Shown: positions 2,741-64,000 of the stretch, piece after piece | Layout of the letters: every line of letters begins with the position of its first letter | Numbering within the stretch: the first letter of the stretch is position 1 | Assembly (NCBI RefSeq): GCF_024679245.1 | Contig: NC_090180.1 | Coordinates: forward strand, 16,214,507 to 16,278,506 | DNA: 64,000 bases | Direction: 5' to 3' | Source: Pseudorasbora parva | Lineage: Eukaryota; Chordata; Actinopteri; Cypriniformes; Gobionidae | Notes under the pieces: generated by a model | Told to the model about the DNA's origin: nothing | The model's input: the letters and a program-made list of their open reading frames with translations, nothing else | Database searches by the model: none | Made by a program: the position numbers and the translations under genes

Positions 2741-2836
2741 TATTATTCGAAATTTTTACTTTTTTATTAATTTTTGTAATTTTTCCCTTTTTCCATTGTT
2801 GCACTTTGAGATTCTAGAGATAAAGTGCGTTATAAA

Positions 2837-3305
2837 AAAACATGTTGTAATTGATGCAGTATGTGGTCTGGCATTGTCATGTTGGAAAATGCAAGGTCTT
2901 CCCTGAAAGAGACAACATCTGGATGAGAGCATATGTTGTTCTAGAATTTGGATATACCTTTCAGCATTGATGGTGCCTAAAAAACATGTTGTAATTGATG
3001 CAGTATGTGGTCTGGCATTGTCATGTTGGAAAATGCAAGGTCTTCCCTGAAAGAGACAACATCTGGATGAGAGCATATGTTGTTCTAGAATTTGGATATA
3101 CCTTTCAGCATTGATGGTGCCTTTCCAGATGTGTAAGCTGCCCAAGGCACACGTACTCATGCAACCCCATACCATCAGAGATGTAGGCCTCTGAACTGAG
3201 TGCTGATTACAACTGTTGTTGTCCTTGTCCTCTTTAGTCCGGATGACATGGCGTCCCAGTTTTCCAAAAAGAACTTCAAATTTTGATTTGTCTGACTACA
3301 GAACT
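2837..3305 (-). pseudogene. Tc1-like transposase fragment with internal tandem duplication
   Basis: Minus-strand reading gives characteristic Tc1 transposase pieces: LMVWGCMST, GTINAERYIQILEQHM, and FQHDNARPHTASIT, which holds the second catalytic Asp of the DDE triad (QDNA type). The first catalytic Asp region lies in the degenerate part toward 3300, and the block with the final Glu is missing. A 144-bp segment (48 codons) is present twice head to tail, so the fragment reads GTINAERY...ITTCF twice in frame. The plus-strand left edge abuts the LINE fragment. The right edge is cut at 3306 by a DIRS-type terminus. No inverted repeats remain, so it cannot move. Confidence 0.8.
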
Positions 3306-15442: not shown

Positions 15443-15661
15443 GTTTCCTTTCGTTCAGTCACTCTGACGTCACGTCAGTGACTGACGAATGGGGGTTTCG
15501 CTTAGAAGCCTATCATCTCCGAGACTAAAAAGCGCCCAATGGCAGTGCCAATGCCATGGGCATGCGAGATTTGCATGTGTAACTCCGCCTACCCACGTGG
15601 GTATATAAGGAAGTAGCTTGCATAATCGCATTATGTTTTAATGCTTTGGAGCCAAGGGTTA
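15443..15661 (+). repeat. Left inverted terminal repeat of DIRS copy 1, with TATA-like promoter
   Basis: Matches, in inverted orientation, 20086-20290. It includes the words CCAATGGCAGTGCCAATGCC, CCACGTGGGTATATAAGG and ATAATCGCATTATG. The GTATATAAGG after a CACGTG E-box is a plausible TATA promoter for the element's transcript, about 280 bases before the gag ATG. The promoter role is inference from spacing and motif. Confidence 0.85.
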
Positions 15662-15886
15662 CATACCTTTCACTCCTATAAGCCTTCTGAGTTAAGTCAG
15701 TTCTTCGAGACGATCAGGATCTTCCAGTCGGTGTTGGTGTTCGGCGCGTTCCAGCGGTCACATACTTCCTGCCTGCTGGTCAGACGATTGGTTTACAGTT
15801 GGTGTGTGGTCCCCTGGGCGCTTCGGCATCGACTGCGAGGTTAATCCTCTCACAAAAGAGCTCACACGTGGCACGTCCTTTTCAGG

Positions 15887-17260
15887 ATGTCTCGCCCGTG
15901 TGCTTCTGGGTGTGGCCGGTCTCTACACTCTTCTGATGGGCACTCGCACTGTCTGGCATGCTTGGGCTTCCAGCATGCTCAGGCGGCGCTTGTGGATGAG
16001 TCATGTTCCCACTGCGGGAACATGGCCATCTCCGTGTTGCGGTCGAGACTCAATAATCTCTGTGCGGCCGCCGGAGTGAGAGTCCCCTCCGTCACCCCCC
16101 GATCTGACGTGTCCGCGGCCTCGGTATCATCCGGTCCAGGGCGACCTGAGGGTGATGGTGTGCTCCGACGCTCATGCCTCGGCCCACACCCCCCTCTGTT
16201 GCACCGGTACCCGCGAGCGTTTTGATGGAGCCGCGGCGGGCTAGTTTTGAAGGTGGGCTAGAGTCCTCCGAGGATGATGATTCGGCTGTGCTGCCGCCTC
16301 CGGGCGCGCCAGCATTGTCCGAGTCGGACCCGGAGCTGACAGCCATGCTTGCCCGGGCAGCCACGGCGCTTGGTCTGGAGTGGAACCCTCCGCCCTGGCC
16401 AGAGCGTTCGCGGCTTGATGATTGGTTTTTGGGTGCCCCCAATTCCTTTCTTCCCGGAAGTGCATGAGGAGGTTGCGTCTTCTCGCGAGCGCTTGGCAGC
16501 CTCTTCCGCCTTCTCCGCCCTCGATGGGGCGGCGGCTAGAGGGCACACTGGGGTCCCCCCGGTGGAGCGTTCTGTGGCGATGCAACTGTGTCCCCAGAGC
16601 GCCTCCTCCTGGCGTGGCGATCCTAAGCACCCCTCCAAGGCCTGTAGATTCACATCTTCCATGGTGTCGAAGACCTACAGAGCTGCGGGGCAGGCCGCCG
16701 CTTCTTTGCATGCCATGGCAACTCTTCAGGCCTATCAGGCCAAGTTGCTGTGCGACTTGCACGAGGGTGGGGCCGACCCAGGGCTCAGAGATGAGCTGCG
16801 TGCCGCGACCGCAAGAAGCCGCCCCAGTCCGCGCCAGCCCCGCAGCCCGCTAAACGCCAGGCTAAGCGGCGCTCCTGACGCGGACAGCTCAGAGATGGGC
16901 CGTTCTTTCCAGGAAACGGCAGCAGGGCCGCTCCTTCCCCCGGTGGAGGGCCGGGGGAGAATCTTTCGTTCCGCTGCCGCCCCCCGGGGTGGCAGCACCC
17001 TATTGAGGTTAAAGAAAGAACTGACATACCCATCTCTAAGCACCCAGAGACCGGTGACGGCAGTGTGCGCCGCCCCCGGGCCACGCCGCTCTCGTCCCTC
17101 TCTGTCGCCAGCCCCCTCTCAGAGCAGACCCCAGTGGAACGCGAGTCCTTCTCTGGTCTCCTCTGTCAGGGCGCAGCCGTTACCGCCGCCCCAACACCGG
17201 GCCGCTATGCCACCCGAGTCCGGGCCGGTAACGCTGCCTCGCTGCCCCACTGAGGATACG
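15887..17260 (+). pseudogene. DIRS copy 1 gag-like gene, frame-shifted and internally deleted
   Basis: The start MSRPCASGCGRSLHSSDGHS gives a compact Cys/His cluster (CASGC, DGHSHCLAC, CSHCGN) suggestive of metal binding, followed by a proline/serine-rich linker. Relative to copy 3 the frame is lost near 16135-16160 by a deletion and again near 16430. It then continues in the frame that begins at 16349. The conserved block that follows LRDELRAAT in copy 3 (ALRATK ... QERHLWLNL ... FLDAPIS) is deleted here at about 16810, replaced directly by ARSRPSPRQP. The product would be the nucleic-acid-binding structural protein of the element, but this copy cannot make it. Confidence 0.75.
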
Positions 17261-17299
17261 CCGGTGCTCCTCATGACCCCGTTGGTACACTCCCTGGGA

Positions 17300-19100
17300 G
17301 CGTGGCTACAGCTGCCGGGACTGTCCCATTGGGTCGCACGGACCCTCAGGCTCGGCTATGCGAATCAGTTCGCGCGAGCTCCTCCCCGCTTCCGGGGTGT
17401 CTGGTACACCATGGTGGGATCCAATGCCCCAGTCATGCGTGCGGAGATCGCGACCCTACTGGCGAAGGGCGCGGTCAAGCTCGTCCCTCCAGCCGAGATG
17501 AAGTCCGGCTTTTACAGCCCTTACTTCATTGTACCGAAGAAATCCGGTGGGTTACGACCGATCCTGGACCTTGGCGTCCTGAACCGATCCCTGTACAGGC
17601 TTCCGTTCAGGATGTTGACTGTGAAACGCCTTTTTGAATGTGTTCGTCCATGCGATTGGTTTGCAGCGATCGACCTGAAGGACGCGTACTTCATGTGTCC
17701 ATCCTTCCGCGACACAGACCGTTCCTACGGTTTGCGTTCGAAGGGCGGGCATATCAGTATGCCATACTACCATCGTCGAGGCAGCCCTTGCGCCACTCAG
17801 GCAACAAGGGGTTCGCATCCTGAACTATCTCAATGACTGGCTCATACTGGGCCACTCTCGGGACCGGGTGTGCGAACACAGAGATCTGGTTCTCCACCAC
17901 TTAGCTCGTCTGGGCCTTCGGGTCAACTGGGAGAAGAGCAAACTCTGAGAGGATCTCTTTTCTCGGTATGGAGATCGACTCGGTCGCCATGTGTGCGCAG
18001 CTTACCGGCGTGCGCGCGCAGTCACTGCTGACTTGCCTCCGTCAGATAGAGAGCAAGAGTGAGGTTCCACTGAAACTGTTTCAGAGGATCCTGGGGCATA
18101 TGGCATCTGCAGCCACGGTGACGCCGCTCAGATTGCTTCATATGAGACCGCTTCAGCACTGGCTTCGCGATCGAGTCCCAAGATTGGCATGGCAGTCTGG
18201 CACGCTCCGGGTCCCAGTGACTCGGGCCTGCAGACAGACACTCACCCAGTGGTCGAACCTCAGCTTTCTACGGGCAGGTGTGCCCTTAGAACGAGTTTCC
18301 CGGCATGTTGTTGTGTCAACAGATGCGTCCACCACGGGCTGGGGTGCCATGTGCAATGGAGATGCAGCCGTCGGCTCTTGGTCAGAGAGCCAGAGCCGCC
18401 TGCATATCAATTGCCTCGAGTTGCTGGCAGTACGGTTCACCCTGCACCGCTTCCTAGCGTTGCTGAAGGGTCAACACGTACTAGTCAGATCGGACAACAT
18501 GGCCGTAGTAGCATACATCAACCACCAGGGAGGCATACATCTACGCTCCCGCCGCATGTCTCAACTCACCCGCCATCTCGTTTTATGGAGTCAGAAGCAC
18601 CTGAGGTCCCTTCGTGCTGTCCATATCCCGGGGATCCTGAACCGTGCAGCCGACGAGCTCTCACGGGTTCAGCCAATCCCTGGGGTGTGGAGACTCCATC
18701 CCCAGTCGGTCCAGCTGATCTGGGATCAGTTCGGGGACGCACAGGTAGATTTGTTTACCTCCCACGACTCGTCCCATTGCAGTCTGTACTATTCCCTGAC
18801 CGAGGGCACGCTCGGCACGGATGCACTGGCGCACAGCTGGCCGCAGGGCCTACGCAAGTATGCGTTTCCCCCAGTGAGCCTTCTTGCACGTGTTCTGTGC
18901 AAAGTCAGGGAGGACAAGGAGCAGGTCATTTTGGTCGCCCCGTACTGGCACGGCCGGACCTGGTTCCCAGAACTAGTTCTCCTTGCGACAGCCCCTCCCT
19001 GGCCGATTCCTCTGAGACAGGATCTACTCTCTCAGAGACGGGGCACCCTGTGGCACCCATCCATGTGTGGCTCCTGGACGGGACGCGGCAGGTTTGAGTA
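17300..19100 (+). pseudogene. DIRS copy 1 reverse transcriptase and RNase H, broken
   Basis: RT blocks are readable: GFYSPYFIVPKKSGGLRPIL, LNRSLYRLPFRML and the catalytic FAAIDLKDAYF at about 17658-17692. A frameshift follows near 17700, and the YLDD motif appears as YLND (17826-17837), losing the first catalytic Asp. A second frame opened at 17968 carries RNase H with STDAS, HINCLELLAV, VRSDNMAVVAYIN and NRAADELSR, i.e. all four acidic positions of the family. A stop (TGA at about 17946) separates the RT end from the RNase H frame. The enzyme would copy the element RNA and remove it from hybrids; here RT is dead by two independent defects. Confidence 0.88.
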
Positions 19101-19109
19101 CCCTACCAC

Positions 19110-19654
19110 CTACGGTGGTGGCTACCATCACTTCCGCTCGGGCCGAGTCCACGAGACAGGCCTATGCGTTCTGTCTAAGACAGAACCTCTTCGTCAATTG
19201 GTGCTCTTCTCACCAAGAAGACCCCTGGAAATGCCCGATCGGGTCTGTGCTTTCTTTCCTCCAAGAAGGGTTGGATCGAAGGCTGTCTCCATCCACCCTG
19301 AAGGTTTATGTGGCCGCTATCGCCGCCTATCATGACCTCTTGGACGGTAAAACGGTAAGTAAGCACAACATGGTCATCAGGTTCCTGAGGGGTGCGAGGA
19401 GACTACATCCTCCTTGTGCTCCTCTCGTACCCTCTTGGGACCTCTCAGTAGTTCTAAGTGCTCTGCAGAGGGCCCCATTTGAGCCTTTGCGGCCAGTAGA
19501 TGTTAAGTTCTTGTCTATGAAGACAGCGCTCCTGACCGCATTGGCCTCCGTCAAGGGGGTAGGGGACCTGCAGGCATTTTCGGTTGACGAAGCGTGCCTG
19601 GAATTCGGGCCGGCTGACTCTCACGTGATGTATTTCCACCGTAAGCCTCCTTGA
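19110..19654 (+). pseudogene. DIRS copy 1 tyrosine recombinase, N-terminal half only
   Basis: The frame overlapping the RNase H end encodes the core-binding domain (SARAESTRQAYAF, LSFLQEGLDRRLSPSTLKVY, IRFLRGARR) and enters the catalytic domain at LTALASVKGVGDLQAFSV. In copy 2 this last block reads KRVGDL, so the first catalytic Arg is Gly here (codon 19556-19558). The frame stops at 19654 and the remaining catalytic half (HxxR and the nucleophile Tyr) is absent: 19655-19940 contains non-coding sequence only. The copy therefore cannot integrate itself. Confidence 0.85.
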
Positions 19655-19940
19655 GCGGGTGTATTCCCTTGGCAACCTTGCCACCCCCTGGGGTTAAAAA
19701 TCCACCTGCGGCTCGTACCCCAGTGATCTTCCGTATGCAGCCCCCCGGGGTCATACGTGTATTCTTAAGTCCTCCCTACGGGTAGGCATCTTGGCGCATA
19801 TGTCCTCCTGGAATATGCCTCCCAGTGTACCTTGGTATTCCTGCGTTAAGTAGAGGCATTTGACCGTCCTAACGTGCATCAGGGCTTTCACGCTTGCGCA
19901 GGGCACTGGAAGACAGCCGAGTGGCGTTATTTCATTGGGA

Positions 19941-20048
19941 CCCCCATTCGCCAGTCACTGACATTACGTCGGAGTGACTGAACGAAAGGGAACGTCTCGG
20001 TTACGTATGTAACCCTCGTTCCCTGAGGAGGGAACGGAGATGTAACGT
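19941..20048 (+). other. Internal complementary region (ICR) of DIRS copy 1
   Basis: The first half (19941-19993) is the reverse complement of the element's left end (15443-15495) and the second half (19991-20048) is the reverse complement of its right end (about 20271-20328). The halves overlap at a shared AAC. In the DIRS replication model this region templates completion and circular joining of the two termini, so it spells out the circle junction. It sits between the coding part and the right terminal repeat, the canonical location. Confidence 0.88.
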
Positions 20049-20085
20049 CCCGTTGCCACATCCGCTGTACCGCTGGAACGGAGTT

Positions 20086-20328
20086 CAACTTGGCTCCTCA
20101 GCAGGTAAAACATAATGCGATTATGCCAGCTACTTCCTTATATACCCACGTGGGTAGGCGGAGTTACGCATGCAAATCTCGCATGCCCATGGCATTGGCA
20201 CTGCCAGTGGGCGCTTTCTAGTCTCGGAGATGATAGGCTTCAAAGCGAAACCCCCATTCGTCAGTCACTGACGTTACGTCTCCATTTCCTCCTCAGGGAA
20301 CGAGGGTTACATACGTAACCGAGACGTT
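20086..20328 (+). repeat. Right inverted terminal repeat and right-end extension of DIRS copy 1
   Basis: 20086-20290 is the inverted counterpart of the left repeat. 20270-20328 is the unique right-end extension (TCAGGGAACGAGGGTTACAT ... CCGAGACGTT), which recurs in DIRS copy 2 and in two short remnants at 30920 and 39069. Confidence 0.85.
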
Positions 20329-22735: not shown

Positions 22736-23985
<1,250 letters not shown>

Positions 23986-23989
23986 TTAA

Positions 23990-24651
23990 AGGTGCACTAT
24001 GCAACTTTCCATCCACTGGAGGGCGCCTATTCAAAACAAATGCGTAGTTTGATGACACAAAGTTTGAGAGCAGCATCTTGGGACATGTGGTCTTCGACTC
24101 ACAGCCGGTGGAAAATAGGACTCGGGCAGAAATCACATTCATGCATGCGGTTATTAATGTTACTGTAGTGTGAAGAAGAGCGGGACCGAGTGCTGTGGAG
24201 CTGAGCACAGCTGCTGGAGCGATTGTTAAACAAATACCCGCCTCGCGAACACCGGACTTTTATTATGACGGGACGGGACACAGTCGCCGGGCGCCTGCAC
24301 TGATCCACTCTTCCGGTTATGATTATGAGGTAATGGAGCTCTGTTTATCATATTAGATACATTTAAGTGTGTTGAAAATGATGTCATGACGTTACTCTGT
24401 GCATTCACTTCATACTGCTAAGAGTAAAGCGCTCCTGCCAAATAAAACCCGAAACCGAGGGTAGCGCAGATATGACACAATTGACAGTGAAGTCTATGCT
24501 GAAACGTCCCGGTCCTTAGTTCAAATAGCAATTTTCTCACAATTTGCAAATAGTTGGAAACATTTGGGATATTACTCAACTAAACAAAATATATAACAGC
24601 GGCCTAGTGGTTTTTGGATATTTTACTGCAAAAATACTACATAGTGCACCT
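23990..24651 (+). mobile_element. TTAA-flanked DNA element, copy A (662 bp)
   Basis: Ends AGGTGCACTATG and CATAGTGCACCT are perfect inverted repeats, each flanked by TTAA (23986-23989, 24652-24655). A second copy, 679 bp, lies in opposite orientation at 43194-43872. Both have the words TCCACTGGAGGGCGCC, CCGGTGGAAAATAGGACTCG and GCATGCGGTTATTAATG or their complements. No transposase is encoded, so it is non-autonomous. Confidence 0.85.
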
Positions 24652-24655
24652 TTAA

Positions 24656-25960
24656 CTGAAAGAATGTGGCCCTCCAGGCCAGGGGCTGATATTGACAAAT
24701 TGTCTTCAGGAAATTAAATTAAGACAATCTGAACTGATATTCAGTACAATATAGCAAATCCAAATTACCACCTTTGACTTTGATGATAAAGGTATTTTTA
24801 AATATCTTTAGCACTGATTGGCCTTGAGACTAAATTAAATTAATCTGACTCACCATTGCATTTGTGGGAATTTTTTCTCTTTCTCTATCTCTCTGTTGGA
24901 AGGAGAATCTGCCAAAAGGCCCAAACACCAGCCATGCAGCGTGTTACCAGCACAGATATGGAAGAGCCTTAAGATTTAAGGAATATTTTTTGCATAATTT
25001 GATATAATACTGTATACATAGCATATTACCCAAGATCTCTTATTTTAACTTATCCAAGATAATGAAACTCTTACGTTGCATTATATTCACTTGGATTATT
25101 CCTTTAAACCCTAATTGTAACCAGAAGTTTTTGTTCCTTTTCTTCTCAGTTCCTGAGAACAGGTTTTGTACGATGTTAACTCATCAGTATGTTTGTTTGT
25201 TTTGAACCAAAAAAAGGGTAGCATAAAAACCTGTTTAACGAGTTTTTGTGATTCCATTAATCTATTGTCAGCCGAACACAATTGGAGTTAACTCTATGTG
25301 AAGGAGATGTTTTGTACTGCATGAGGTAAAAGGGTGGTCACACCATACTAACTGGTTTTCGGTTTATATTTGAAATATAAACATTTAAATGGTGGCTGTC
25401 ATAAAAACTTGCCATGCAAATAGCATGCCTTGTTGGCAAGTGCTATTTGCAATTTCGCATTAGCTCTTCACCTGATAATGCCTGGCTGTGCCAAACAACA
25501 TTTAAAAAAAAATGCCCACAGATCAATGTCCTCAGTGTTGCAATCAGTAAAGCGTATGCATAGCTAATAGATCACTGTTTTGTTGAACCTGGGGTTCTAA
25601 CCCACCTTTTGCAAAGCTTGCTCTTCTCTCATTTCTCATCACAAATCACATCGGAAAGGCATTTTCAATAAAAATTAAGAGAATGTTCTAAATATGGAAA
25701 TAAAGTGCCAGACAAAATGTTTAATAATAATAAAAGCATTTAATAGGCAGGGTTAGGGATATGTGTAAGGGAGGCTTTATTGTCCCTTTAAGGTGGCATT
25801 CCATTCAATGATTTAAATAAAAATAATAATTTACTAATAAGAGGGGCAAATGGTATGTATCTGTCAACATAAATGATAAATTACAATTACTATTTATATG
25901 GCAAAGAATTGCTACTTTTATATGGTGTAAATAGAATATATCACTATTTTCACTTTGTAA
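24656..25960. other. No gene seen
   Basis: AT-rich intergenic sequence with no recognisable protein or repeat termini. Confidence 0.4.
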
Positions 25961-30919: not shown

Positions 30920-31001
30920 GTTCCCTTTCAGTCGGTCACTACGACGTACGTCTCCGTTCCCTCCTTCAGGGAAGGAGGGTTACATACGTAACCGAGACGT
31001 T
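30920..31001 (+). mobile_element. Solo DIRS remnant: left end fused to right end (82 bp)
   Basis: Starts GTTCCCTTTCAGTCGGTCAC, the left terminus of DIRS copy 2, passes through GACGTACGTC, and continues as the right-end extension of copy 2 with a single difference in about 59 bases, ending CCGAGACGTT. Both ends carry GTT, as intact copies do, and there is no target duplication. Everything between the termini, about 5.5 kb, is gone. Confidence 0.85.
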
Positions 31002-32109
31002 TTTCATGAGCTGTATGCCAAAATCATCAGTATTAAAACAATAAAAGACCTAAAATATTTCAGTTGGTGTGCAAAGAGTCTAAAATATATGAAAGTTTAA
31101 TTTTTATCATTACATTATGGAAAAAAATTAACTATCACAGTATGCCAATTTTTTTGAGAAGGACCTGTATATGTAAGTGTAAACTTTTGAAATTATGTTT
31201 ATTAACAAAGATTCGGGAGGAGCGTGTCATAACTGACACAGGTGGAGAGCACTCAGCTAATCAACAAGAGTTGTATATACTGAATACGCAGCAGTCTTAC
31301 CTCCGTTTCTGTTGACACTTTATCAGCATCCCTCCACCACCCCTTCTCCACATTTTGCTCTTTTAGTTAACCACTTACATACACTGGAGGTACTCTGGGT
31401 TAAGGCCAAGTTCGAGCTCAAAGCCCTCCCCCCGGACAGCATGCCAAATACGCACTCTACTCGTGAAATGCAACGTGAATGACAGTGCGGCCAAGAATCG
31501 ATGAAAGAGTCCCCATGTGCATTTTATTTTCGGCTTAGAATTAGGGACAGTTCTAGGATGGGTTGCATGAATGGTGGGTTCATTAGCCTATTATTTTTAA
31601 TGAAAAACGCAACAACAAAACAGTACAATGACAAACTCACTTCAATAGGTGCTTTTACATATTCTTAATCTTAATCATCACAATCATCTTAACATCAGCT
31701 CCTCACAAGTGATGGGAGTCGACTCCAAAAGAGTAAATTCCTCTGAATAGCCCCAGAGTCGGGGTCAACTCCAGCACAGGAATCGACTCTTGGTGTCAAC
31801 TCGGTTGCTGGTCTGAAATCGCTCACTTTTTTACTGATTTTCTAAACCCTAAAAAGGGTATGGCAGTTGAGTGCACTATAAGCAAGAAATTAATGAATTC
31901 CATAGACTCCTACAGTGGGAGTCGGAATTAAAACCTGGAATCGAACACCCCTAGTCCCCAATCTCTTACGATACAGTCTGACAAGGAACAATTGTAAAGG
32001 ATTATTATAAATCGCACAGTGTGTCACTGGCTTTAGTCTGTGGATGTGCACGAATAGTTGGAATATTTGAATTAGGGCTGGGTAAAAGAAAAATATAGAT
32101 TTTTCAATT
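31002..32109. other. No gene seen
   Basis: AT-rich intergenic sequence without recognisable coding or repeat structure. Confidence 0.45.
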
Positions 32110-32198: not shown

Positions 32199-32420
32199 AA
32201 CGTCTCGGTTACGTATGTAACCCTCGTTCCCTGAAGGAGGGAACGGAGACGTACGTCAGAACTGAACCGACGAATGGGATCTTACTTTAGAGACCAATCC
32301 TACTTCGAGCATCTAACAACGAGCCAATGAAATTTGGCATGCGATCACGCATTCCACGCTCCGCCCCGCAGCGCGGGTATAAAACAGGAAGTGGAATGAT
32401 AGATCAGCGCTTTTCCTGCT
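32199..32420 (-). repeat. Right inverted terminal repeat and extension, DIRS copy 2
   Basis: 32248-32420 is the inverted counterpart of 37585-37749 (shared words GCGGGTATAAAACAGGAAGT, GGCATGCGATCACGCATTCC, TAGAGACCAATCCTACTTCG or their complements). 32199-32257 is the right-end extension. Confidence 0.88.
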
Positions 32421-32635
32421 GAGGAGCCGAAAGGTGACCGGACAGCCACGTTTCACAAGCATACGGGTGCAGGCCTGGCGTCAGACGGTCCGCAACGTCT
32501 GACACCGGAGGGGTGACGGAGGAGCTCGACAGGGTTAGCCGGTTTCCCGGGGAACACAACTGGAGACAATAGACGCACGTATCCGGCCCAGAGGGCGGGA
32601 GTGGCGTTTCGCAAGCCGACACTTAGAACGGGCAC

Positions 32636-33640
32636 TTAGCGCTCCTGGCCACTGGGGGCGAGGATGCGGGAAGATACCGGCTCTACACGTAAGCTATAGA
32701 ATCTAGCAAACGTGTTAGGTGTCGCCCAGCCCGCAGCTCTACATATGTCTGTCAGCGAGGCACCTTGAGCCAGCGCCCAGGAAGAAGCAACACTCCGAGT
32801 GGAGTGAGCTCTTACACCGAACGGGCAAGGCACGTCTTGGGACTGGTAGGCCAAGACTATAGCATCCACTATCCAGTGGGCTAACCTCTGCTTGGAGACA
32901 GCCTTTCCCTTCTGCTGGCCTCCGTAACAGACGAAGAGTTGCTCTGAGGTCCGAAGGCTTTGGGTCCGGTCAACGTAAGCGCGAAGAGCGCGGACCGGAC
33001 ACAGCAAAGCCAGGGCTGGGTCTGCCTCCTCCGAAGGCAGCGCTTGCAGGTTCACCACCTGATCCCGGAAGGGAGTGGTAGGAACCTTGGGCACATATCC
33101 GGGCCGGGGTCTCAGGACAACGTGAGAGTTACCTGGCCCGAACTCTAGGCACGATTCGTTGACCGAAAGTGCATGCAGGTCCCCTACCCTCTTGATCGAG
33201 GCCAATGCCGTCAGGAGCACTGTCTTCATTGACAAGATTTTCAGCTCACAAGACGCCAAAGGCTCGAAGTGAGGGCTCTGAAGTGCTCGGAGCACTAGAG
33301 CTAAGTCCCAAGAGGGTATCGAGGATGGACGAGGAGGATTTAGTCTTCTCGCACCTCTGAGGAACCTGACGATTAGGTCGTGCTTCCCCACGGACTTACC
33401 TTCTACTACATCATGGTACGCTGCTATTGCTGCAGCATATACCTTGAGGGTGGAGGGAGACAGCCTTCTCTCCAACCCATCTTGCAGGAAGGAAAGCACG
33501 ACACTGATCGAACACCTTCGGGGGTCTTCCCGGCGGGAAGCGCACCACTCAACGAACAGGTTCCACTTCAGCGCATAGAGGCGCCTCGTAGAGGGGGCTC
33601 TAGCTGAAGCGATGGTGTCTACGACAGCTTGTGGTAGTCC
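32636..33640 (-). CDS. DIRS copy 2 tyrosine recombinase, apparently intact
   Basis: About 334 residues read without interruption in a frame that also stays open upstream through the RNase H region. The core-binding half is TIASARAPSTRRLYAL ... FLQDGLERRLSPSTLKVYAA ... FLRGARRLNPP. The catalytic half has the first Arg in ASIKRVGDLHALS, HxxR in VRAHSTRSVASS, AGWATPNTF, and the nucleophile Tyr in FARFYSLRV, i.e. Arg, His-x-x-Arg, Tyr in the order of the tyrosine-recombinase family. It would join the circular DNA intermediate to a target through the AAC/GTT core. The start codon is uncertain, as DIRS recombinases are expressed from a frame overlapping RT/RNase H. This is the only open reading frame of an intact replication enzyme among the DIRS copies here. 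Confidence 0.85.
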   Translation of the reverse strand, partial: GLPQAVVDTIASARAPSTRRLYALKWNLFVEWCASRREDPRRCSISVVLSFLQDGLERRLSPSTLKVYAAAIAAYHDVVEGKSVGKHDLIVRFLRGARRLNPPRPSSIPSWDLALVLRALQSPHFEPLASCELKILSMKTVLLTALASIKRVGDLHALSVNESCLEFGPGNSHVVLRPRPGYVPKVPTTPFRDQVVNLQALPSEEADPALALLCPVRALRAYVDRTQSLRTSEQLFVCYGGQQKGKAVSKQRLAHWIVDAIVLAYQSQDVPCPFGVRAHSTRSVASSWALAQGASLTDICRAAGWATPNTFARFYSLRVEPVSSRILAPSGQER

Positions 33641-33642
33641 AT

Positions 33643-35795
33643 CTAGAACCTCCGCGTCCCGTCCAGGGACCAGACATGAAGATTCCAGAGGTCTGGACGC
33701 GGGTGCCATAGTGTGCCCCGTCCCTGAGAAAGAAGGTCCTTCCTCAGGGGAATCGGCCAAGGAGGGGCTGTCGCGAGGAGTGTGAGTTCTGGGAACCAGG
33801 TCCGGTTGGGCCAATACGGCGCAACTAACAAGACCTGCTCCTCGTCCTCCCTGACCTTGCACAGAGTCTGTGCAAGAAGGCTCACTGGGGGAAACGCATA
33901 CTTGCGTAGGTCCCGGGGCCAGCTGTGCGCCAGTGCATCTGTGCCGAGGGTACCCCCGGTCAGGGAATAGTACCACTGGCAATGGGTCGAGTCCGGAGAG
34001 GCAAACAGGTCGACCTGTGCGGCTCCGAACTGGTCCCATATCAGCTGGACCGCCTGGGGGTGGAGTCGCCACTCTACCGGAGGTGTCGGCTGACGAGAGA
34101 GCTCGTCGGCTGTCTGGTTCAGCACACCAGGGACATGAATGGCCCGAAGCGACCTCAGCTGCTTCTGACTCCACAGGAGGAGGTGGCGGGCGAGTTGGAG
34201 CAAACAACGGGAGCGTAGACCACCCTGACGGTTGATGTACGCAACGGCCGTGGTGCTGTCCGTACGGACCAGTACATGCTTGCCATGCAGCGGCCCCTTG
34301 AGGCGGCGGAGTGCCAGATGTACTGCCAGTAACTCGAGGCAATTGATATGCCAATGCAATTGCGGCCCCGTCCACAGACCAGCAACTGCATGCCCGTTGT
34401 ACGTGGCCCCCCAGCCTGTGGTGGAGGCATCCGTGAATAGCACAGCATGCCTGGACACTTGTTCTAGGGGCACCCCGGCCCGGAGAAACGAAGTGCTGGA
34501 CCACGGGCTGAAGGTTTGGCGGCAGTAAGGAGTCACTGGGACCCGGTACTGACCGCTCTGCCACGCCCACCTCGGGACTCGGCCATTGAGCCAGCGTTGA
34601 AGCGGTCTCATATGAAGCAATCCGAGCGGCGTGACCGCGGCTGCAGATGCCATATGTTCAACACCGACTGGTTGACCAAGTCCAGCTCCATACCGAGATA
34701 AGAGATCCTCTGTGTAGGACAGAGTTTGCTCTTCTCTCGGTTGACCCGAAGGCCCAACTGGCTGAGGTGACTGAGCACCAAGTCCCTGTGTTCGCACAAC
34801 TGGTCCTTCGACTGGGCTAGGATCAGCCAACCGTCGAGGTAGTTGAGAATCCGAACGCCGCGTTCTCTGAGCGGAACAATGGCTGCCTCCGCGACCTTCG
34901 TAAAGACGCGGGGCGACAGGGACAGCCCGAAGGGCAGGACCTTGTACTGATATGCTTTCCCCTCGAACGCCAAACGTAGGAACGGTCTGTGTTGAGGGAG
35001 AAAGACACACGGAAGTACGCATCCTTCAGGTCGATCGCTGCAAACCAATCCTGGGGACGGATGCATTGGAAATGCGTTTCTGCGTCAACATCCTGAACGG
35101 GAGCTTGTGCAGGGCCCGATTCAGAACTCGCAGGTCCAGGATTGGTCGTAACCCACCCCCTTCTTGGGCACAATGAAGTAGGGGCTATAGAACCCCGTCT
35201 TCATATCGGCTGGAGGAACCGGCTCGATCGCGTCCTTCGCCAGTAGGACCTCGATCTCTGACCTCAAGACCTGAGCATCGCTGCTTCGCACGGAGGTGAA
35301 GAGGATGCCCCTGTACTTGGGCGGCCGGCGCGCGAACTGAATCGCGTAGCCGAGTCTGATGGTACGGATGAGCCAGCGAGACGGCCCGGGGAGACCTAGC
35401 CAGGCCCCCAGAGACCGTGCAAGCGGGACCAACCGCACCACAGACATGCCCGGGGTGGGGCAGCGAAGCGGAGTACTCTGGCCCGACTCGGGAGGCCCGG
35501 AGGCGGCCCGAAGTGTTGCCTGAGCACTCCTGGTTTGGACAGAGAGTGGGTGAGAAGGCCCGGAGGCGTCCTCGGAGCCCACTCTGCTGCCCACTGCCCG
35601 GAGGCAGGGAAGTGAAGCACTCAGCCCCGACCCGGGAGGCCCGTGGGCGGCCCGGAGTGTTGACTGAGTGCTCACGAGAGAGGAAGTGTGTGGGTGAGAA
35701 GGCCCGGGGGCGTCCTCGAGGCCCACACAACTGCCCCCTGGCGACGGGAGGGTAGGAAAGGAGTGACAAGGCCCGTGGGCGTCGCACACTGCCAA
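33643..35795 (-). pseudogene. DIRS copy 2 reverse transcriptase and RNase H, frame-shifted
   Basis: The N-terminal RT runs from GAWLGLPGPSRWLIRTIRLG to GFYSPYFIVPKK (in the frame 35121-35795), where the frame breaks at a run of G. LNRALHKLPFRML and DWFAAIDLKDAYFRV follow in other frames, then AFEGKAYQYKVLPFGLSLSP and the catalytic motif as YLDG at 34830-34841 (second Asp lost), in 34608-35066. The RNase H frame (33643-35022) carries FTDASTTGWGA, HINCLELLAV, VRTDSTTAVAYIN and NQTADELSR, all acidic residues present. At least three frame changes and the YLDG change make the RT non-functional; RNase H alone is readable. Confidence 0.87.
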
Positions 35796-35830
35796 CCTGA
35801 CCCTCTTGGGGCCCAGAGAGAGAGGAAACA
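35459..35830 (-). repeat. In-frame 144-bp tandem repeat in the gag-RT linker of DIRS copy 2
   Basis: A Pro/Arg/Ser-rich unit (minus strand: GPSHP, STLRAAHGPPGSG, SASLPCLRA) recurs at about 35459, 35603 and, partially, 35747. A period of 144 bases keeps the frame (48 codons). The function is unknown; it lengthens a low-complexity linker. Confidence 0.7.
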
Positions 35831-36330
35831 GCTCTTAAAATGTGGGTACCGCTGGACTCCGGAGAGCCAGTGGCAGAACCGAAACCAGTCAGGGCCCCCC
35901 GGTCCTCCTCCGGGGGGGTGGGGGAGGGATGCGAACATCGTCTCCCCCGAGCAGCTCCTGTTCTCCCTAGCCGGCCCGTCTCAGGGCCGCGTCCCCTTGC
36001 GCTTGCCTGCCGGTTAGCGGGCCCTGGACGGGTTGGGCGTCCCTCGCGTCCGGCACCCTGCTCCTCCAGTGGAGGCTGCTGCTCGGCTCTAGCAGGGTGG
36101 AGGCGGACGCAGGAGGGGATGCCCTCGGCGACGAGCCGGCAGAGGCGCTGCGACCGACGACCGAGCAGCTGGTCGTCGGCACCCTGGTGCAACGCCTCCG
36201 TCTGCTCTTGGGCCACCAAGAACTGCTGGGCAAAGTTCTCGATGGTGCCGCCGAGGAGGCCAGCCCGACAGACAGGCTTTTCTTGCGCATATCTGCCAGG
36301 TTAGCCCCCTATTCCTGGACCACTAGTGTG
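35800..36330 (-). pseudogene. DIRS copy 2 gag C-terminal remnant
   Basis: On the minus strand, LADMRKK-type sequence followed by SGLFGGTIENFAQQ-like and VAQEQTEALHQGADDQLLGR parallels the part of copy 3 gag that reads WLNLADMRDAERTRF ... ISQAGLFGG. Frames shift within it. The N-terminal Cys/His cluster seen in copies 1 and 3 is not found upstream, where a run of 20 A (36481-36500 plus-strand T) interrupts. Confidence 0.55.
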
Positions 36331-37584
36331 GACATCGCCTGACCCAGGGAGCGTGCAGTGATTTTCGTCGCCCATAGGGCGAGGTCCAACACCGCACGCA
36401 GTTCCTGCACAACCCCTGGGCTGGGACTACCCTCGTGCGTGCAGGGCAGAGGGCAGTGAGAGAGGGAAAACAATGATACTTTTTTTTTTTTTTTTTTTTT
36501 GGCCCTTTTGACCCTCCATATTTCCCTCTCTCCGATGCAGCAACTGACATCTGTCCTCTGCCAGAGCCAAAAATGAAACGCTAAGCCCTTTTCTCTTTAG
36601 GATCAGCGATTCCACCTTCAACTACCAGCAGGCATGCGAGACAGTGAACGTGGCCGTCAGAATGGCACACAGCGCACTGAGCGCTCAAGCCTCTAAGAAG
36701 AAGGCAAGGCGAACAATGCCCTGACGTGGTCGTGTTCTCATGAGAGAATCCGTACCACCCACGAACAGAGTCTCAGCATGCTTTTGATGCGATAGAGGAG
36801 TGGGGGCCCGAGGGGATTTACCCGGCGGGGAATCCCCACTGTAATCCTCAGGCCACCAGCGCTTATCAGCCAAAGTAGCCCTTTTCCAGTAACACTAGAA
36901 ATGAACTAGATAGGGGGATAGGCGAAGGGACTCGACCCCATCTGAGGTTTCATAGTCTCGACCGCGCATCTAGAGCGCCGACTGACGCGCGCCGGTTGTC
37001 GTGACAACCACCGCTGTCAGCAGGCCTCTCGACGGCACACGGCGCGCTGAACACTCGAGCCCTTTATGAGAAGGGGGAGACGAACAACGCGCCGACGTGA
37101 CCATGTTCTTTTACCAGAACATGAATCACCCACGATCGCAACCGTCAAAGAGGACAGGAAACAGTTGCATACCAGGAATACACGGTTTGAATGACATCTT
37201 GAAAAAGACGCAGGGTCAAACCGTGTTGCTCTTTTGTGAATGGAAAGCTGCTCTTTTAGTGTGCTGAAGCACTCAGGGAGATGACCGCGGCTCCACACAG
37301 TTCGTGCTGCAAGCCTGTGTGAGCTCTCAGTGATGTGTATTTGTGTGTGTGTAACGCCCAGCGAACCAACAGTTTGTATGGGAAACGCTCAGCGAACCAA
37401 CAGTTTGTATGGGAACGCTCAGCGAACCAACAAGCTCCTTTAGATCGCTTGATCACTGATCAGACGGTCTCTCACTGACGCGCCGTATCACCCGCACTGG
37501 CAGACTCTCTCACTCAACACTCTTTGACTCGTAGTCAGACACTCTTCGTAGGAAACAGTAAGCACTGCTCGGCTCCGAAGTAGA
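36331..37584 (-). other. Leader region of DIRS copy 2 with internal duplications
   Basis: Contains the 20-base T tract (36481-36500), two related segments 370 bp apart (36664-36780 and 37034-37150, both starting GGCACAC and sharing the arrangement CGAACAA...TGACGTGG or CGACGTGACC), and three 30-bp units CAGCGAACCAACAGTTTGTA at 37360, 37390 and 37420. No gag start like those of copies 1 and 3 is visible. Confidence 0.55.
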
Positions 37585-37773
37585 AAGCGCTGATCTATCA
37601 TTCCACTTCCTGTTTTATACCCGCACTGCGGGGTGGAGCGTGGAATGCGTGATCGCATGCCAAATTTCATTGGCTCGTTGTTAGATGCTCGAAGTAGGAT
37701 TGGTCTCTAAAGTAAGATCCCATTCGTCGGTTCAGTTCTGACGTACGTCGAACGTGACCGACTGAAAGGGAAC
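37585..37773 (-). repeat. Left inverted terminal repeat, DIRS copy 2
   Basis: The inverted counterpart of 32248-32420, ending (plus strand) in ACTGAAAGGGAAC. It includes TATAAAA on the minus side of ACTTCCTGTTTTATACCCGC, a possible promoter for the element's transcript. Confidence 0.88.
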
Positions 37774-39068: not shown

Positions 39069-39155
39069 AACATCTTGGTTACGTATGTAACCCTCGTTCC
39101 CTGAAGGAGGGAACGGAGACGTACGTCGTACCGAAGTTGGTTCAGTACCTTCAAC
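39069..39155 (-). mobile_element. Second short DIRS end remnant (possible solo)
   Basis: Plus strand AACATCTTGG through GAACGGAGACGTACGTC matches the right-end extension of DIRS copy 2 with three differences in the first ten bases and none after. Beyond the palindrome GACGTACGTC the sequence (GTACCGAAGTTGGTTC ... TTCAAC) does not match the known left end except for the first few bases, so it is either a solo of another subfamily or a truncated end. Confidence 0.6.
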
Positions 39156-42556: not shown

Positions 42557-43189
42557 AGAGGGACTTGTGGTGTTTCATAGTTTTACCACAAGGTGGTAGT
42601 GTAATGCTTAAGTATTAAGGTGGTAAGAGTAATCTGGTAAAATAGAGGAAGAGTGTGTTCCATGTGAATGTGTGTAGGTAGCAGGTGTTGAAATAAAGAG
42701 CCTGAAGGGAGACTTATTATGTGTTTAGTGCTACAAAACACAACACGTGACAGTGACACTAATATTTGAACGTATTGAGTACTAACCATTTCAAGTTTTT
42801 CAGATTATAATTATTGTTTAGTTTTCTGTCTAGAGTAAGTATGAGTGAAACAAACATTGCATTTTAGACATTGTCACCTGTGGAATAAAGGTGAATTGCA
42901 CTTATTTTGTCATTATAGATTCATTTATTGTTGTGAAGGGGGGAAAAAGACATGCGTACACATCTTGTTTTGTTAGAAACCCCATAAAGTTTTTACCAAA
43001 CAAAAAAACAAGTGGAAAAACAAGCATTCAATTATAATTGTATTATTATTATTGTACTTTATTTTTTCTTGTTATATAATGGATTGATGAATACTAAAAA
43101 GGTTGATTTAAAAAAAAAATGAATGAGGAGGAGGGTAGTGAATGATGCCGCTAAAGTAAGGTATGTATAAGGGTTAAAGTTGCTTTCAG
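42557..43189. other. No gene seen
   Basis: AT-rich intergenic sequence with no recognisable features before the TTAA element. Confidence 0.45.
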
Positions 43190-43193
43190 TTAA

Positions 43194-43872
43194 AGGTGCA
43201 CTATGTAGTATTTTTGCAGTAAAATATCCATAAGCCACTTGGCCAATTTTATATATTTTGTTCAGTTGAGTACCTACAATATCCCAAATGTTTCCAACTA
43301 TTTGTAAATTGTGAGAAAATTGCTATTTTAACTAAGGACCGGGACGTTTCAGTATAGCGTCTGAGGAAGTCGCCTGTCAATTACGTCATATCTGCGTTAC
43401 CCTTGGTGTCGTGTTTTATTTGGCAGACGCGCTTTACTCTTAGCAGTGTGAACAAGTGAAGGCACATAGTAACGTCATGACATCATTTTCAACACACTTA
43501 AATATAGATGTGATAAACAGAGCTGCATTACCTCATAGTCATAACCAGTAGAGCGGATCAGTGCAGGCGCCCGGCGACTGTGTCCTGTCCAGTCACAATA
43601 AAAGTCTCGGTGCTCGCGAGCCGTGTGTTTGTATAACAATCGCTCCAGCGGCCGTGCTCAGCTCCACAACACTCGGTCCTGCTCTGCTTTACACTACAGT
43701 AACATTAATAACCGCATGCATGAACATGATTTCTGCCCGAGTCCTATTTTCCACCGGCTGTGAGGTAAAGACCACATCTCCCAAGATACTGCACTCAAAC
43801 TTTGCGTCATCAAACTACGTATTTGTTTTGAATAGGCGCCCTCCAGTGGACGGAAAGTTGCATAGTGCACCT
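43194..43872 (-). mobile_element. TTAA-flanked DNA element, copy B (679 bp), inverted relative to 23990
   Basis: Same perfect inverted ends AGGTGCACTATG and CATAGTGCACCT, flanked by TTAA (43190-43193, 43873-43876). The internal sequence is the reverse complement of copy A with scattered differences. Non-coding. Confidence 0.85.
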
Positions 43873-43910
43873 TTAAAACAGCTCAAACATGCATTTTAGT
43901 CTGGGACTGC

Positions 43911-48372: not shown

Positions 48373-48679
48373 TACAATAATTTTACCTACACATTGACCT
48401 TTAAAATTATGAATAATAGACCTGCCCTGAGAATTATTTACTGGAGTAAATGGTGTGACAGCTAGGGTTATACTCAATTCTGCTCAATTCCATCACAAAG
48501 AGCCAAATATTATATCTTTAAAAAATTGTGCAGTTTCCTAGATACAAGAGGTGTCTCATCTTACCCCACTCACTCAGACTGTGCCTTGTGAATGTATTCA
48601 AACCCTGGAAAAACGAATCATTTGCTGAATTACAACTCCTGTAGTTTGTTTAATCATTCTTCATTAAAACCATGAGATA

Positions 48680-50314
48680 CATTGCCTTGCGAAAGTATTC
48701 GGCCCACTTGAACTTTGCAACCTTTTGCCACATTTCAGGCTTCAAACATAATGATATAAAACTGTAATTTTTTGTGAAGAATCAACAAGCGGGACACAAT
48801 CATGAAGTGGAATGAAATTTATTTATATATTTCAATCTTTTTTAACAAATCAAAAACTGAAAAATTGGGCGTGCAAAATTATTCGGCCCCCTTAAGTTAA
48901 TACTTTGTAGCTCCAACTTTTGCTGCGATTACAGCTGTAAGTCGCTTGGGGTATGTTTCTATCAGTTTTGCACATCGAGAGACTGAAATCTTTGCCCATT
49001 CCTCCTTGCAGAACAGCTCGAGCTCAGTGAGGTTGAATGGAGAGCGTTTGTGAACAGCAGTTTTCAGTTCTTTCCACAGATTCTCGATTGGATTCAGGTC
49101 TGGCCTTGACTTGGCCATTCTAACACCTGGATATGTTTATTTTTGAACCATTCCATTGTAGATTTTGCTTTATGTTTTGGATCATTGTCTTGTTTGAAGA
49201 CAAATCTCCGTCCCAGTCTCAGGTCTTTTGCAGACTCCATCAGGTTTTCTTCCAGAATGGTCCTGTATTTGGCTCCATCCATCTTCCCATCAATTTTAAC
49301 CATCTTCCCTGTCCCTGCTGAAGAAAAGCAGGCCCAAACCATGATGCTGCCACCACCATGTTTGACAGTGGGGGTGGTGTGTTCAGGGTGATGAGCTGCG
49401 TTGCTTTTACGCCAAACATAACGTTTTGCATTGTTGCCAAAAAGTTCAATTTTAGTTTCATCTGACCAGAGCACCTTCTTCCACATGTTTGGTGTGTCTC
49501 CCATGTGAATATCTTTAAGAAATGGCTTTCTTCTTGCCACTCTTCCATAAAGGCCAGATTTGTGCAGTATACGACTGATTGTTGTCCTATGGACAGAGTC
49601 TCCCACCTCAGCTGTAGATCTCTGCAGTTCATCCAGAGTGATCATGGGCCTCATCTCTGATCAGTCTTCTCCTTGTATGAGCTAAAAGTTTAGAGGGACG
49701 GCCAGGTCTTGGTAGATTTGCAGTGGTCTGATACTCCTTCCATTTCAATAGTATCAAGTATCACTCCTTCCATTTCATATAGTTTCAATAGTAGAGCACA
49801 AATGCTTGCACAGTGCTCCTTGGGATGTTTAAAGCTTGGGAAATCTTTTTGTATCCAAATCCGGCTTTAAACTTCTCCACAACAGTATCTCGGACCTGCC
49901 TGGTGTGTTCCTTGTTCTTCATGATGCTCTCTGCGCTTTAAACGGACCTCTGAGACTATCACAATGCAGGTGCATTTATACGGAGACTTGATTACACACA
50001 GGTGGAGTCTATTTATCATCATTAGTCATTTAGGTCAACATTGGATCATTCAGAAATCCTCACTGAACTTCTGGAGAGAGTTTGCTGCACTGAAAGTAAA
50101 GGGGCCGAATAATTTTGCACGCCCAATTCTTCAGTTTTTGATTTGTTAAAAAAGTTTGAAATATCCAATAAATTTAATTCCTCTTCATGATTGTATCCTA
50201 CTTGTTGTTGATTCTGCACAAAAAAATTACAGTTTTATATCTTTATGTTTGAAGCCTGAAATGTAGCAAAAGGTCGCAAAGTTCAAGGGGGGCGAATACT
50301 TTCGCAAGGCACTG
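48680..50314 (-). mobile_element. Tc1/mariner-like element B (1.6 kb)
   Basis: Long inverted ends of about 200 bp, with outermost CAGTGCCTTGCGAAAGTATT (right end) and CATTGCCTTGCGAAAGTATT (left end), are flanked by TA at 48678-48679 and 50315-50316. It contains one transposase pseudogene on the minus strand. It is closely related to element C at 59512. Confidence 0.9.
48897..49925 (-). pseudogene. Tc1 element B transposase, one frameshift plus damaged N-terminus
   Basis: Minus strand. The helix-turn-helix half near 49654-49925 is readable only in pieces and contains a small duplication of CTCCTTCCATTTCA. The frame 49094-49654 gives [26 protein letters not shown] (first catalytic Asp), [13 protein letters not shown] and [14 protein letters not shown] (second Asp). 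The frame then shifts at about 49094-49118 and continues [17 protein letters not shown] (catalytic Glu, DD34E) to TKY at 48897. The enzyme would cut and paste the element at TA; this copy is inactive. Confidence 0.88.
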
Positions 50315-50347
50315 TAATTTTACATTTAATATTCTTTTCAATATTAA

Positions 50348-55199: not shown

Positions 55200-55975
55200 A
55201 CAACCAATGAGGTTCATTCTTGTGTTACACAGCACATTTGAGCTTCTGCAAGAAACAATGAGGTTCATCCTCATGTTATGCAGCACATCTGAGCTTCTGC
55301 AAGAACCAATGAGGTTCATTCTTGTGTGTTATGCAGCATGTTTGAACTTTGGCAAGACCCAATAAGGTTAATTCTTGTGTTATGCAGCACATAAGAGCTT
55401 CTGCAAGAACGAATGAGGTTTGTTCTCGTGTTATGCAGCATGTTTGAGCTTCCACAAGAACCAATGAAGCTTGTTCTTATGTGTTAGGTAGCATGTTTGA
55501 GCTTCCACAAGAACAAGTGAGGTTCATTCTCATGTTACAAAGCACATTTGAGCTTCAGAAAGAATCAACAAGGTTAATTCTTGTGGGTTACATGAATTTA
55601 GGCTTTTATTCACATAAACCTTCATCCACTCACACATCAGTAGTGGTAAATGGAAGCTCAAGCATGTCCACTTGACATGCAACGATTAATGAGGTGCATT
55701 CTTGTGTGTTACTCACCACATTTGAGCTTCCACAAGAAGCAATGAGGTTCACTCTTGTGTGTTGTGCAGCATGTTATGCAGCACGTTTGAGCTTCCGCAA
55801 GAACTAATAAGGTTCATTCTTGCGTTACGCAGCACATTTGAGCGTCCGCAAGAACCAATGAGGTTCATTCTTGCGTTATGCAGCACGTTTGAGCTTCCAC
55901 AAGATCCACTGAGGTTCGTTCTCATGTTATGCAGCATGTTTGAACTTTGGCAAGAACCAACTCCAGTTACCCCAA
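55200..55975. repeat. Minisatellite (51-53 bp unit, 12 copies) in the gpr158 intron
   Basis: The unit CAAGAACCAATGAGGTTCATT CTTGTGTTATGCAGCACATTTGAGCTT-like recurs with its GAGCTT or GAACTT anchor at 55240, 55291, 55344, 55395, 55446, 55499, 55550, about 55730, 55789, 55840, 55891 and 55945. Spacing is 51 or 53 bases. The array is split by a longer unit: the flank at 55137-55205 (TCAACATAAACAGAAGCTTG, GTCCGCTTGATGTG) is echoed at 55590-55690 (TGGAAGCTCAAGCATGTCCA), i.e. a second-order duplication. Introns on either side remain spliceable. Confidence 0.9.
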
Positions 55976-60825: not shown

Positions 60826-60830
60826 CTTAA

Positions 60831-62318: not shown

Positions 62319-64000
62319 GTTCCCTTTCGTTCAGTCACTCCGACGTAACGTCAGTGACTGACGAATGGGGGTTTCGCTTAGAAGCCTGTCATCTCCGAGA
62401 CTAGAAAGCGCCCAATGGCAGTGCCAATGCCATGGGCATGCGAGATTTGCATGCGTAACTCCGCCTACCCACGTGGGTATATAAGGAAGTAGCTGGCATC
62501 ATCGCATTATGTTTTTATGCTTCGGAGCCAAGGGTTACATACCTTTCACTCCTACAAGCCTTCTGAGTTAAGTCAGTTCTTCGAGACGATCAGGATCTTC
62601 CAGTCGGTGTTGGTGTTCGGCGCGTTCCAGCGGTCACATACTTCCTGCCTGCTGGTCTGACGATTGGTTTCCAGTTGGTGTGTGGTCCCCTGGGCGCTTC
62701 GGCATCGACTGCGAGGTTAATCCTCTCACAAAAGAGCTCACACGTGGCACGTCCTTTTCAGGATGTCTCGCCCGTGTGCTTCTGGGTGTGGCCGGTCTCT
62801 ACACTCCTCTGATGGGCACTCGCACTGTCTGGCATGCTTGGGCTTCCAGCATTCTCAGGCGGCGCTTGTGGATGAGTCATGTTCTCACTGCGGGAACATG
62901 GCCATCTCCGTGTTGCGGTCGAGACTCAATGATCTCCGTGCGGCCGCCGGAGTGAGAGTCCCCTCCGTCACCCCCCGATCTGACGTGTCCGCGGCCTCTG
63001 TCTCTTCCGGTCCGCGGGGCGTCTCTTCGGCTGGTGGCCAGGGTGACCTGAGGGTGATGGTGTGGAATACAGCTCCGACGCTCACGCCTCGGCCCACACC
63101 CCCCTCTGTTGCACCGGTACCCGCGAGCGTTGTGATGGAGCCCGCGGCCTCGGTCTCGGCCGGTCCGCGGGTTTCGTTCGGCGCGCCAGAGGAGGATGAG
63201 ATGTCGGTGACCGCATCGCAAGGTGGGCTAGAGTCCTCCGAGGATGAGGATTCGGCTGTGCTGCCGCCTGTGCTGCGCGCCAGCATTGTCCGAGTCGGAC
63301 CCGGAGTTGACAGCCATGCTTGCCCGGGCTGCCGCGGCGCTCGGTCTGGAGTGGAACCCTCCACCCCGGCCGGAGCGTTCACGGTTAGATGATTGGTTTT
63401 TGGGTGCGCCACGACAGGACAGCCGTCCTGCCGTGCCCCCAATTCCTTTCTTCCCGGAGGTGCATGAGGAGGTTGCGCACTCGTGGAGGGCCCCCGTGTC
63501 TTCTCGCGAGCGTTTGGCAACCTCTTCCGCCTTCTCCGCCCTCGATGGGGCGGCGGCTAGAGGGTACACTGGGGTCCCCCCGGTGGAGCGTTCTGTGGCG
63601 ATGCAACTGTGTCCCCAGAGCGCCTCCTCCTGGCGTGGCGACCCTAAGCACCCCTCCAAGGCCTGTAGATTCACATCTTCAATGGTGTCGAAGACCTACA
63701 GAGCTGCGGGGCAGGCCGCCGCTTCTCTGCATGCCATGGCAACCCTCCAGGCCTACCAGGCCAAGTTGCTGTGCGACATGCACGAGGGTGGAGCCGACCC
63801 AGGGCTCAGAGATGAGCTGCGTGCCGCGACCGACCTCGCTCTCCGGGCGACGAAGGTTACCGCACGCTCCCTGGGCCGGGTGATGTCCACATGCGTGGTC
63901 CAGGAGAGACATCTATGGCTCAACCTGGCCGATATGCGGGACGCCGAGCGGACTCGTTTCCTCGACGCCCCCATATCCCAGGCTGGGCTATTCGGCGGTG
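62319..64000 (+). mobile_element. DIRS retrotransposon copy 3, 5' part (runs off the window)
   Basis: Starts GTTCCCTTTCGTTCAGTCAC. The left terminal repeat (62319-62540) is nearly identical to that of copy 1, including CACGTGGGTATATAAGG. The gag gene follows. It is the same subfamily as copy 1 but lacks copy 1's gag deletions. RT, RNase H, recombinase and the right end would lie beyond the window. Confidence 0.92.
62763..64000 (+). pseudogene. DIRS copy 3 gag-like gene, one frameshift, open to the window end
   Basis: It starts MSRPCASGCGRSLHSSDGHS with the same Cys/His cluster as copy 1 (CASGC, DGHSHCLAC, CSHCGN), then Pro/Ser/Val-rich linkers. One extra base near 63270 (CCTGTGCTGCGCG against CCTCCGGGCGCG in copy 1) shifts the frame. 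From there the other frame continues without a stop to the last base: SESDPELTAMLARAA, LDDWFLGAP, VPPIPFFPEVHEEV, SKACRF-like KACRFTSSMVSKTYRA, DELRAATDLALRATK and VQERHLWLNLADMRD, ending ISQAGLFGG. These blocks are the conserved part of DIRS gag proteins. Without the single frameshift it would be a full gag, so this is the best-preserved gag here. Because it has no stop inside the window it is easily missed. Confidence 0.8.

Follow-up and report, generated by a model that had tools for sequence, protein, structure and literature searches.

Recurring solo derivatives of DIRS elements in a fish genome and their probable origin by deletion across a direct repeat hidden in the element ends

How might a retrotransposon with inverted terminal repeats give rise to a short unit that consists of little more than its two outer ends? 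This question is raised by an 82-bp unit in a 64-kb stretch of fish DNA, hereafter the window, out of a genome of 1.23 Gb. A sequence-only reading had described the unit as both termini of a DIRS element fused at a shared palindrome, and we find that its coordinates and anatomy were right (Table 1). We describe below the full copies in the window, the unit itself, its kin across the genome and the possible routes by which such units arise.

Table 1. Features of the window related to the DIRS copies and the solo unit (positions are those of the window).
Feature	Position	Strand	Remarks
DIRS copy c1	15443..20328	+	4886 bp; subfamily other than that of c2
c1 internal complementary region (ICR)	19940..20049	+	
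Solo DIRS unit	30920..31001	+	82 bp; bounded by GTT on either side
Solo left extension (lE) part	30920..30942	+	23 bp; first 20 as c2 left end
Solo join, palindrome GACGTACGTC	30943..30952	+	
Solo right extension (rE) part	30953..31001	+	49 bp
Solo right flank	31002..31172	+	part of a dispersed repeat found beside DIRS right ends
DIRS copy c2	32199..37773	-	5575 bp; without ICR, about 590 bp deleted relative to L052
c2 right extension (rE)	32199..32247	-	49 bp
c2 right inverted terminal repeat	32248..32430	-	palindrome at outer edge, 32248-32257
c2 tyrosine recombinase region (putative)	32636..33673	-	last 345 codons of ORF 32636-34570
c2 left inverted terminal repeat	37569..37749	-	palindrome at outer edge, 37740-37749
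c2 left extension (lE)	37750..37773	-	24 bp
Isolated right extension and palindrome	39069..39127	-	57/59 as c2
DIRS copy c3, left part	62319..64000	+	cut by the window end

Besides the solo and an isolated right end, the window holds three DIRS copies, of which c1 and c3 are 93% alike over 830 bp and belong to another subfamily than c2. The coding strand of c2 is the minus strand, so that the right end of the element lies at position 32199 and the left end at 37773; the sequence-only reading had located these termini properly and had their orientation reversed. The inverted terminal repeats of c2 (183 bp, 96.2% alike) are accompanied by extensions of 24 and 49 bp, and its minus-strand ORFs include a reverse transcriptase (PF00078, 6.9e-18) and an RNase H (PF17917, 1.2e-6), with no Pfam family for three of the five ORFs. 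An ICR is present in c1 (score 94 versus a random maximum of 17) and in all of the full copies sampled from the genome (10/10), whereas in c2 it is absent (score 11 versus 18 for random sequence). Because c2 is 98-99.6% alike to the copy at L052 and has lost the ICR together with the rest of a segment of about 590 bp relative to it, c2 is a deletion copy, and this comparison rules out that it represents an element type without an ICR. Each end of c1, of c2 and of the window solo carries GTT, and their flanks are otherwise unlike. We assign the parent family to the DIRS1-like elements, with what appears to be a 3-bp core and no further target duplication. The left extension of c1 (15443-15465) lies outside the inverted repeat and yet is complementary to the c1 ICR. 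Left extensions had previously been seen only in fungi and amoebozoa, according to the available part of a survey of DIRS elements (PMC3266345).

The putative recombinase of c2 is 72-85% identical to fish-named matches, such as those of Leuciscus, Carassius, Labeo and Myxocyprinus (among 120 listed of 2005), and some of its fish homologues bear the name Tyr recombinase. Across 17 recombinase sequences, residues H290, R293, W316 and Y326 are invariant and R162 is nearly so, a set that we take to be the tyrosine recombinase motif; c2 is predicted to carry a tyrosine recombinase. No Pfam family was assigned to this region, its integrase match falling below threshold, and searches for related solved structures and for the recombinase in viral contigs gave 0 matches each. 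The structure model that we obtained (mean pLDDT of 43) is too poor for use. A protein recorded as that of Micromonospora sp. RP3T (P0032), from a contig of 3918 bp, shares 80% identity with this fish recombinase and is probably fish DNA inside a bacterial assembly.

The solo is made of a left part, one palindrome and a right part, each closely matched by c2, and it represents the joined ends of an element of 6 kb. In the left part, 32 of 34 aligned columns are identical to c2, including the outermost 20/20, and in the palindrome and rE the agreement is 58/59. When the ends of c2, taken as its first and last 300 bases, are spliced in two pieces, the solo scores 76, as compared with 65 for the right end alone and 16 for the left end alone. 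The palindrome, which the sequence-only reading had reported near both ends of c2, is indeed at both of these, and it has four matches in the window altogether (30943, 32248, 37740 and 39118) versus 0.01 expected from shuffles. Random splices inside c2 share at least 10 bp at the join in 4 of 200,000 draws; this and the shuffle expectation rule out a chance likeness of the solo to DIRS ends. For the palindrome and rE of c2 (32199-32257), the predicted fold comprises an outer stem and two hairpins, with z of -5.8 for c2, -3.8 for the solo and -2.5 for c1. At the isolated right end, no lE or inverted repeat was demonstrable inward of the palindrome (39128 on), where three of four candidates were no better than shuffles and the fourth was equalled by 43 of 1000 shuffles.

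A bigger rearranged DIRS body around the unit is ruled out, as its flanks match only runs of A elsewhere in the window. That both flanks are unrelated to any repeat is also ruled out, since the right flank (approximately 31002-31172) belongs to a dispersed repeat, which comes immediately after a DIRS right end at seven other fetched places. A left end was found in five of these seven, and their common left flank is unlike that of the solo; judged by these flanks, the DIRS insertions beside the repeat are distinct from the insertion of the window solo. The repeat looks like either a favoured target or a co-amplified insertion. At L052-L055 and L057 (and also at L056 and L058), DIRS elements occupy an identical position next to a repeat of roughly 170 bp, which at some of the L052-L058 loci is also present in inverted orientation on the other side, again as expected of a favoured target or of co-amplification. 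Other repeats in the window are a perfect 144-bp tandem duplication (2835-3122), a minisatellite with a unit of about 51 bp (55202-55960) and two dispersed repeat pairs (23983-24662 with 43183-43879, and 48678-50316 with 59510-60833), the copies of which are 85-93% alike.

Searches outside this genome yielded no relatives of the unit. Read as a protein, the solo gave no candidate; the rE and lE patterns had 0 matches each in viral contigs; c2 had no match among plasmids; and sequence words did not occur in open-licence papers. Eight bacterial records (genome contigs) match the rE pattern, but their alignments with the solo span no more than 17-21 bases and were rejected as chance.

Within its own genome, the window solo belongs to a repeatedly found class of solo DIRS derivatives, in which both outer termini are kept and the body is absent. 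A 121-base query gave at least 43 matches (40 of 1246 candidates scored), and complete units of lE, palindrome and rE occur at 23 fetched sites, alongside a further unit (L073) whose right end is broken. Other copies exist, as had been forecast, and the window solo as a single case is ruled out. One of the 23 sites stands for 14 loci, to which the solo was copied along within a repeat of about 2.8 kb. This repeat, which extends from GGGTCAATGAC to GTCATTGACCC, carries the solo at one point at 14 loci or more; loci of the solo-bearing repeat are L028-L033, L035, L040, L042, L043, L045-L048 and L059-L062. When the 300-base flanks of the 24 sites are compared, likeness is seen only at L016, L017, L073 and L075, in the form of short DIRS-end-like stretches near the units. 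GTT is present at both ends in 18/23 solo sites. The solos at three unrelated sites (L013, L015 and L018) equal the joined c2 ends without difference, and all others, L073 aside, differ at 1-6 positions. By type of join, the majority (16/23) have the 24-base lE up to the palindrome, three have a 23-base lE, three (L016, L025 and L075) show an additional T like that of the right repeat, and one (L036) switches to right-repeat sequence seven bases before the palindrome. The right-repeat sequence of L036 is also present in another subfamily, at L026/L056.

Full copies far outnumber these solos. The exact solo join has 16 matches at 15 places in the genome, and the pattern in which the same left part runs on into the inverted repeat has 925, with 0 for the control in either case; this is the count of solos against full copies that the sequence-only reading had proposed. 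As sampled pairs of full-type matches consist of an internal copy and a left end that has a flank of its own (10/10), the 925 matches correspond to approximately 460 full elements, all 10 of the sampled copies having a complete right end. The solos thus amount to a few percent of the full copies, a rough ratio given that the two patterns fix 29 and 32 bases. The ends of the full copies are nearly identical to one another (10/10 sampled). On C1, three full-type left ends (50830369, 50830675 and 50830981) follow one another at an exact spacing of 306 bp, an apparent tandem array of the left terminus.

The anatomy of the DIRS ends suggests how such units could form. All three copies have a left terminus that is close to a palindrome over about 46-54 bp, and as a consequence the outermost 34 bp at either end make up a direct repeat like that of LTRs. 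One member of the pair is lE with the palindrome (34 bp), the other the 34 bp at the outer margin of the right inverted repeat, both in the same direction. In c2, 30 of 36 columns agree, the last 10 bp perfectly, for a local score of 20 versus a maximum of 11 in 500 random draws; with the palindrome removed, the score of 12 exceeds the maximum of 11 in 1000 draws by a narrow margin. The repeat is weaker in c1, with 25 identical columns, 2 mismatches and 14 gap columns (ends counted). The palindrome had been taken to be the only direct repeat, of 10 bp. This view does not hold, as the repeat measures about 34 bp and 4/23 solos have their crossover outside the palindrome.

We consider it probable, at roughly 0.6, that the window solo and its kin are the DIRS counterpart of solo LTRs, formed by deletion in place across this 34-bp repeat. 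Recombination or slippage between the two stretches would remove the body and one repeat and leave lE, one palindrome and rE, and the two stretches may be brought close to each other when the long inverted repeats pair. We infer that a full copy once occupied every solo site, was deleted in place and was helped in this by pairing. The right-repeat letters outside the palindrome in 4/23 solos indicate that the solos arose more than once, and homology-driven deletion would predict the observed spread of crossovers, most of which lie at the perfect 10 bp and a few at other points of the 34-bp repeat. Several observations stand against deletion in place. A 23-base lE is present at 4/15 join places (the window, C21, C23 and C25) versus 0/100 listed of the 925 full-type matches (Fisher p of 0.0002). 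An inserted base in rE likewise occurs at 5/23 solo sites versus 0/18 full right ends (p of 0.056), the 18 being 10 sampled copies, 7 of L052-L058 and c2. Both variants could point to lineages of solos, or else to older parents outside the sample. The weaker direct repeat of c1 also counts against this reading, as does the score for a one-piece origin of the window solo from a right end, which comes close to that of the two-piece splice.

Such variants are also what one might expect if a short unit, once born by such a deletion, were moved in trans by the DIRS recombinases, which we regard as unlikely. Complete ends, with GTT at 18/23 sites, would be in keeping with movement, and the solos share variants across places: a TAC variant is common to the window solo and the four-unit array on C25, and a TTC variant to C23 and C21, neither being seen in 100 listed of the 925 full-type matches. 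Four sites, moreover (L016, L017, L073 and L075), have units that adjoin a further DIRS piece with one GTT in common. At three of them (L016, L017 and L075) the adjoining pieces differ in kind, which insertion into an end already in place would predict. In the C25 array (L017), four solos share GTT at a 79-bp period and are joined by a mini-element with short inverted repeats; L016, L073 and L075 hold tandem DIRS mini-units that share GTT as pairs of unlike units. A moving sublineage would insert at GTT beside T and into DIRS ends, giving shared-GTT arrays with a 79-bp period. However, tandem units may also come from tandem full insertions that lose their bodies or from unequal exchange, and the solos are few compared with about 460 full elements. 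Bending a 79-bp circle would cost about 37 kT versus 0.5 kT for the full element (a textbook estimate), and no TATAAAA-bearing inverted repeat remains in the solo. The first base after the final GTT is T in 19/22 solo rows and also in 8/10 full copies, and a preference so alike in both says nothing about the short form. Identical solos at unrelated loci, which the sequence-only reading had regarded as a sign of mobilisation, do exist (L013, L015 and L018), but with full-copy ends nearly identical to one another, they are also expected from independent deletions and are no proof of it. It is doubtful whether the sublineage with the 23-base lE moves as a minimal recombinase substrate rather than consisting just of scars.

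The deletion may instead have occurred in a replication intermediate, either cDNA or a circle, with the short product integrated once. DIRS elements are thought to replicate via circular DNA, as stated in the available part of one source (PMC5633606), and this, like the exact termini at the solo sites, speaks for such a route. The same stiffness of a 79-bp circle speaks against it, and we hold it to be improbable. Least credible is that the window solo is a mere fragment from the right-hand side of an element with an lE-like right repeat, broken by chance at GTT. Its right-only score of 65 is not far below the two-piece score of 76, but 23 sites with the same two ends, 18 of them with GTT at both, largely refute this.

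Deletion in place across the 34-bp repeat resembles the formation of solo LTRs in that the body and one repeat are lost between two direct repeats and the termini are kept. It differs in that the DIRS repeat is short (34 bp), imperfect and hidden in the inverted-repeat ends, and in that the DIRS solo keeps a different extension on each side. Inverted-repeat transposons of bacteria undergo nearly precise excision by slippage between short direct repeats. The likeness lies in short direct repeats beside long inverted repeats, although that process is known from bacterial transposons and is a parallel by analogy here. Among tyrosine-recombinase retrotransposons, Ngaro elements in Cafeteria likewise leave isolated termini, as solo AB repeats attributed to recombination of the 5' and 3' repeats in the part of the report available (PMC8547959); their split direct repeats make solos expected, whereas DIRS1-like elements have inverted repeats. 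Wang et al. 2021 predicted that ectopic recombination removes DIRS internal sequence, a process that, to their knowledge, was uninvestigated (PMC8498967, available part). The deletions considered here would likewise remove internal sequence by such recombination, but between the outer edges of both ends, whereas theirs would proceed via repeats shared with the ICR (PMC8498967, same part). Piednoel 2011, which defines lE, rE and ICR, contains no word beginning with 'solo' in its available text (PMC3266345), and DIRS solos are likewise absent from the accessible portions of PMC2685390, PMC7599744, PMC9210276, PMC5941688, PMC5006619, PMC8969392 and PMC5753468. We found no description of DIRS solos in the accessible text of the open-licence literature searched.

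By analogy with retroviruses and their solo LTRs, DIRS elements may leave scars in the form of solos. The loss of DIRS elements has been inferred from read-depth ratios in a genome-size study (PMC8498967, available part), and DIRS solos would give a direct and countable mark of that loss. More generally, inverted-repeat elements with a near-palindromic terminus would carry a hidden LTR-like repeat. If some of the solos do move, their size would, in our judgement, be unusually small for a recombinase substrate in an animal genome.
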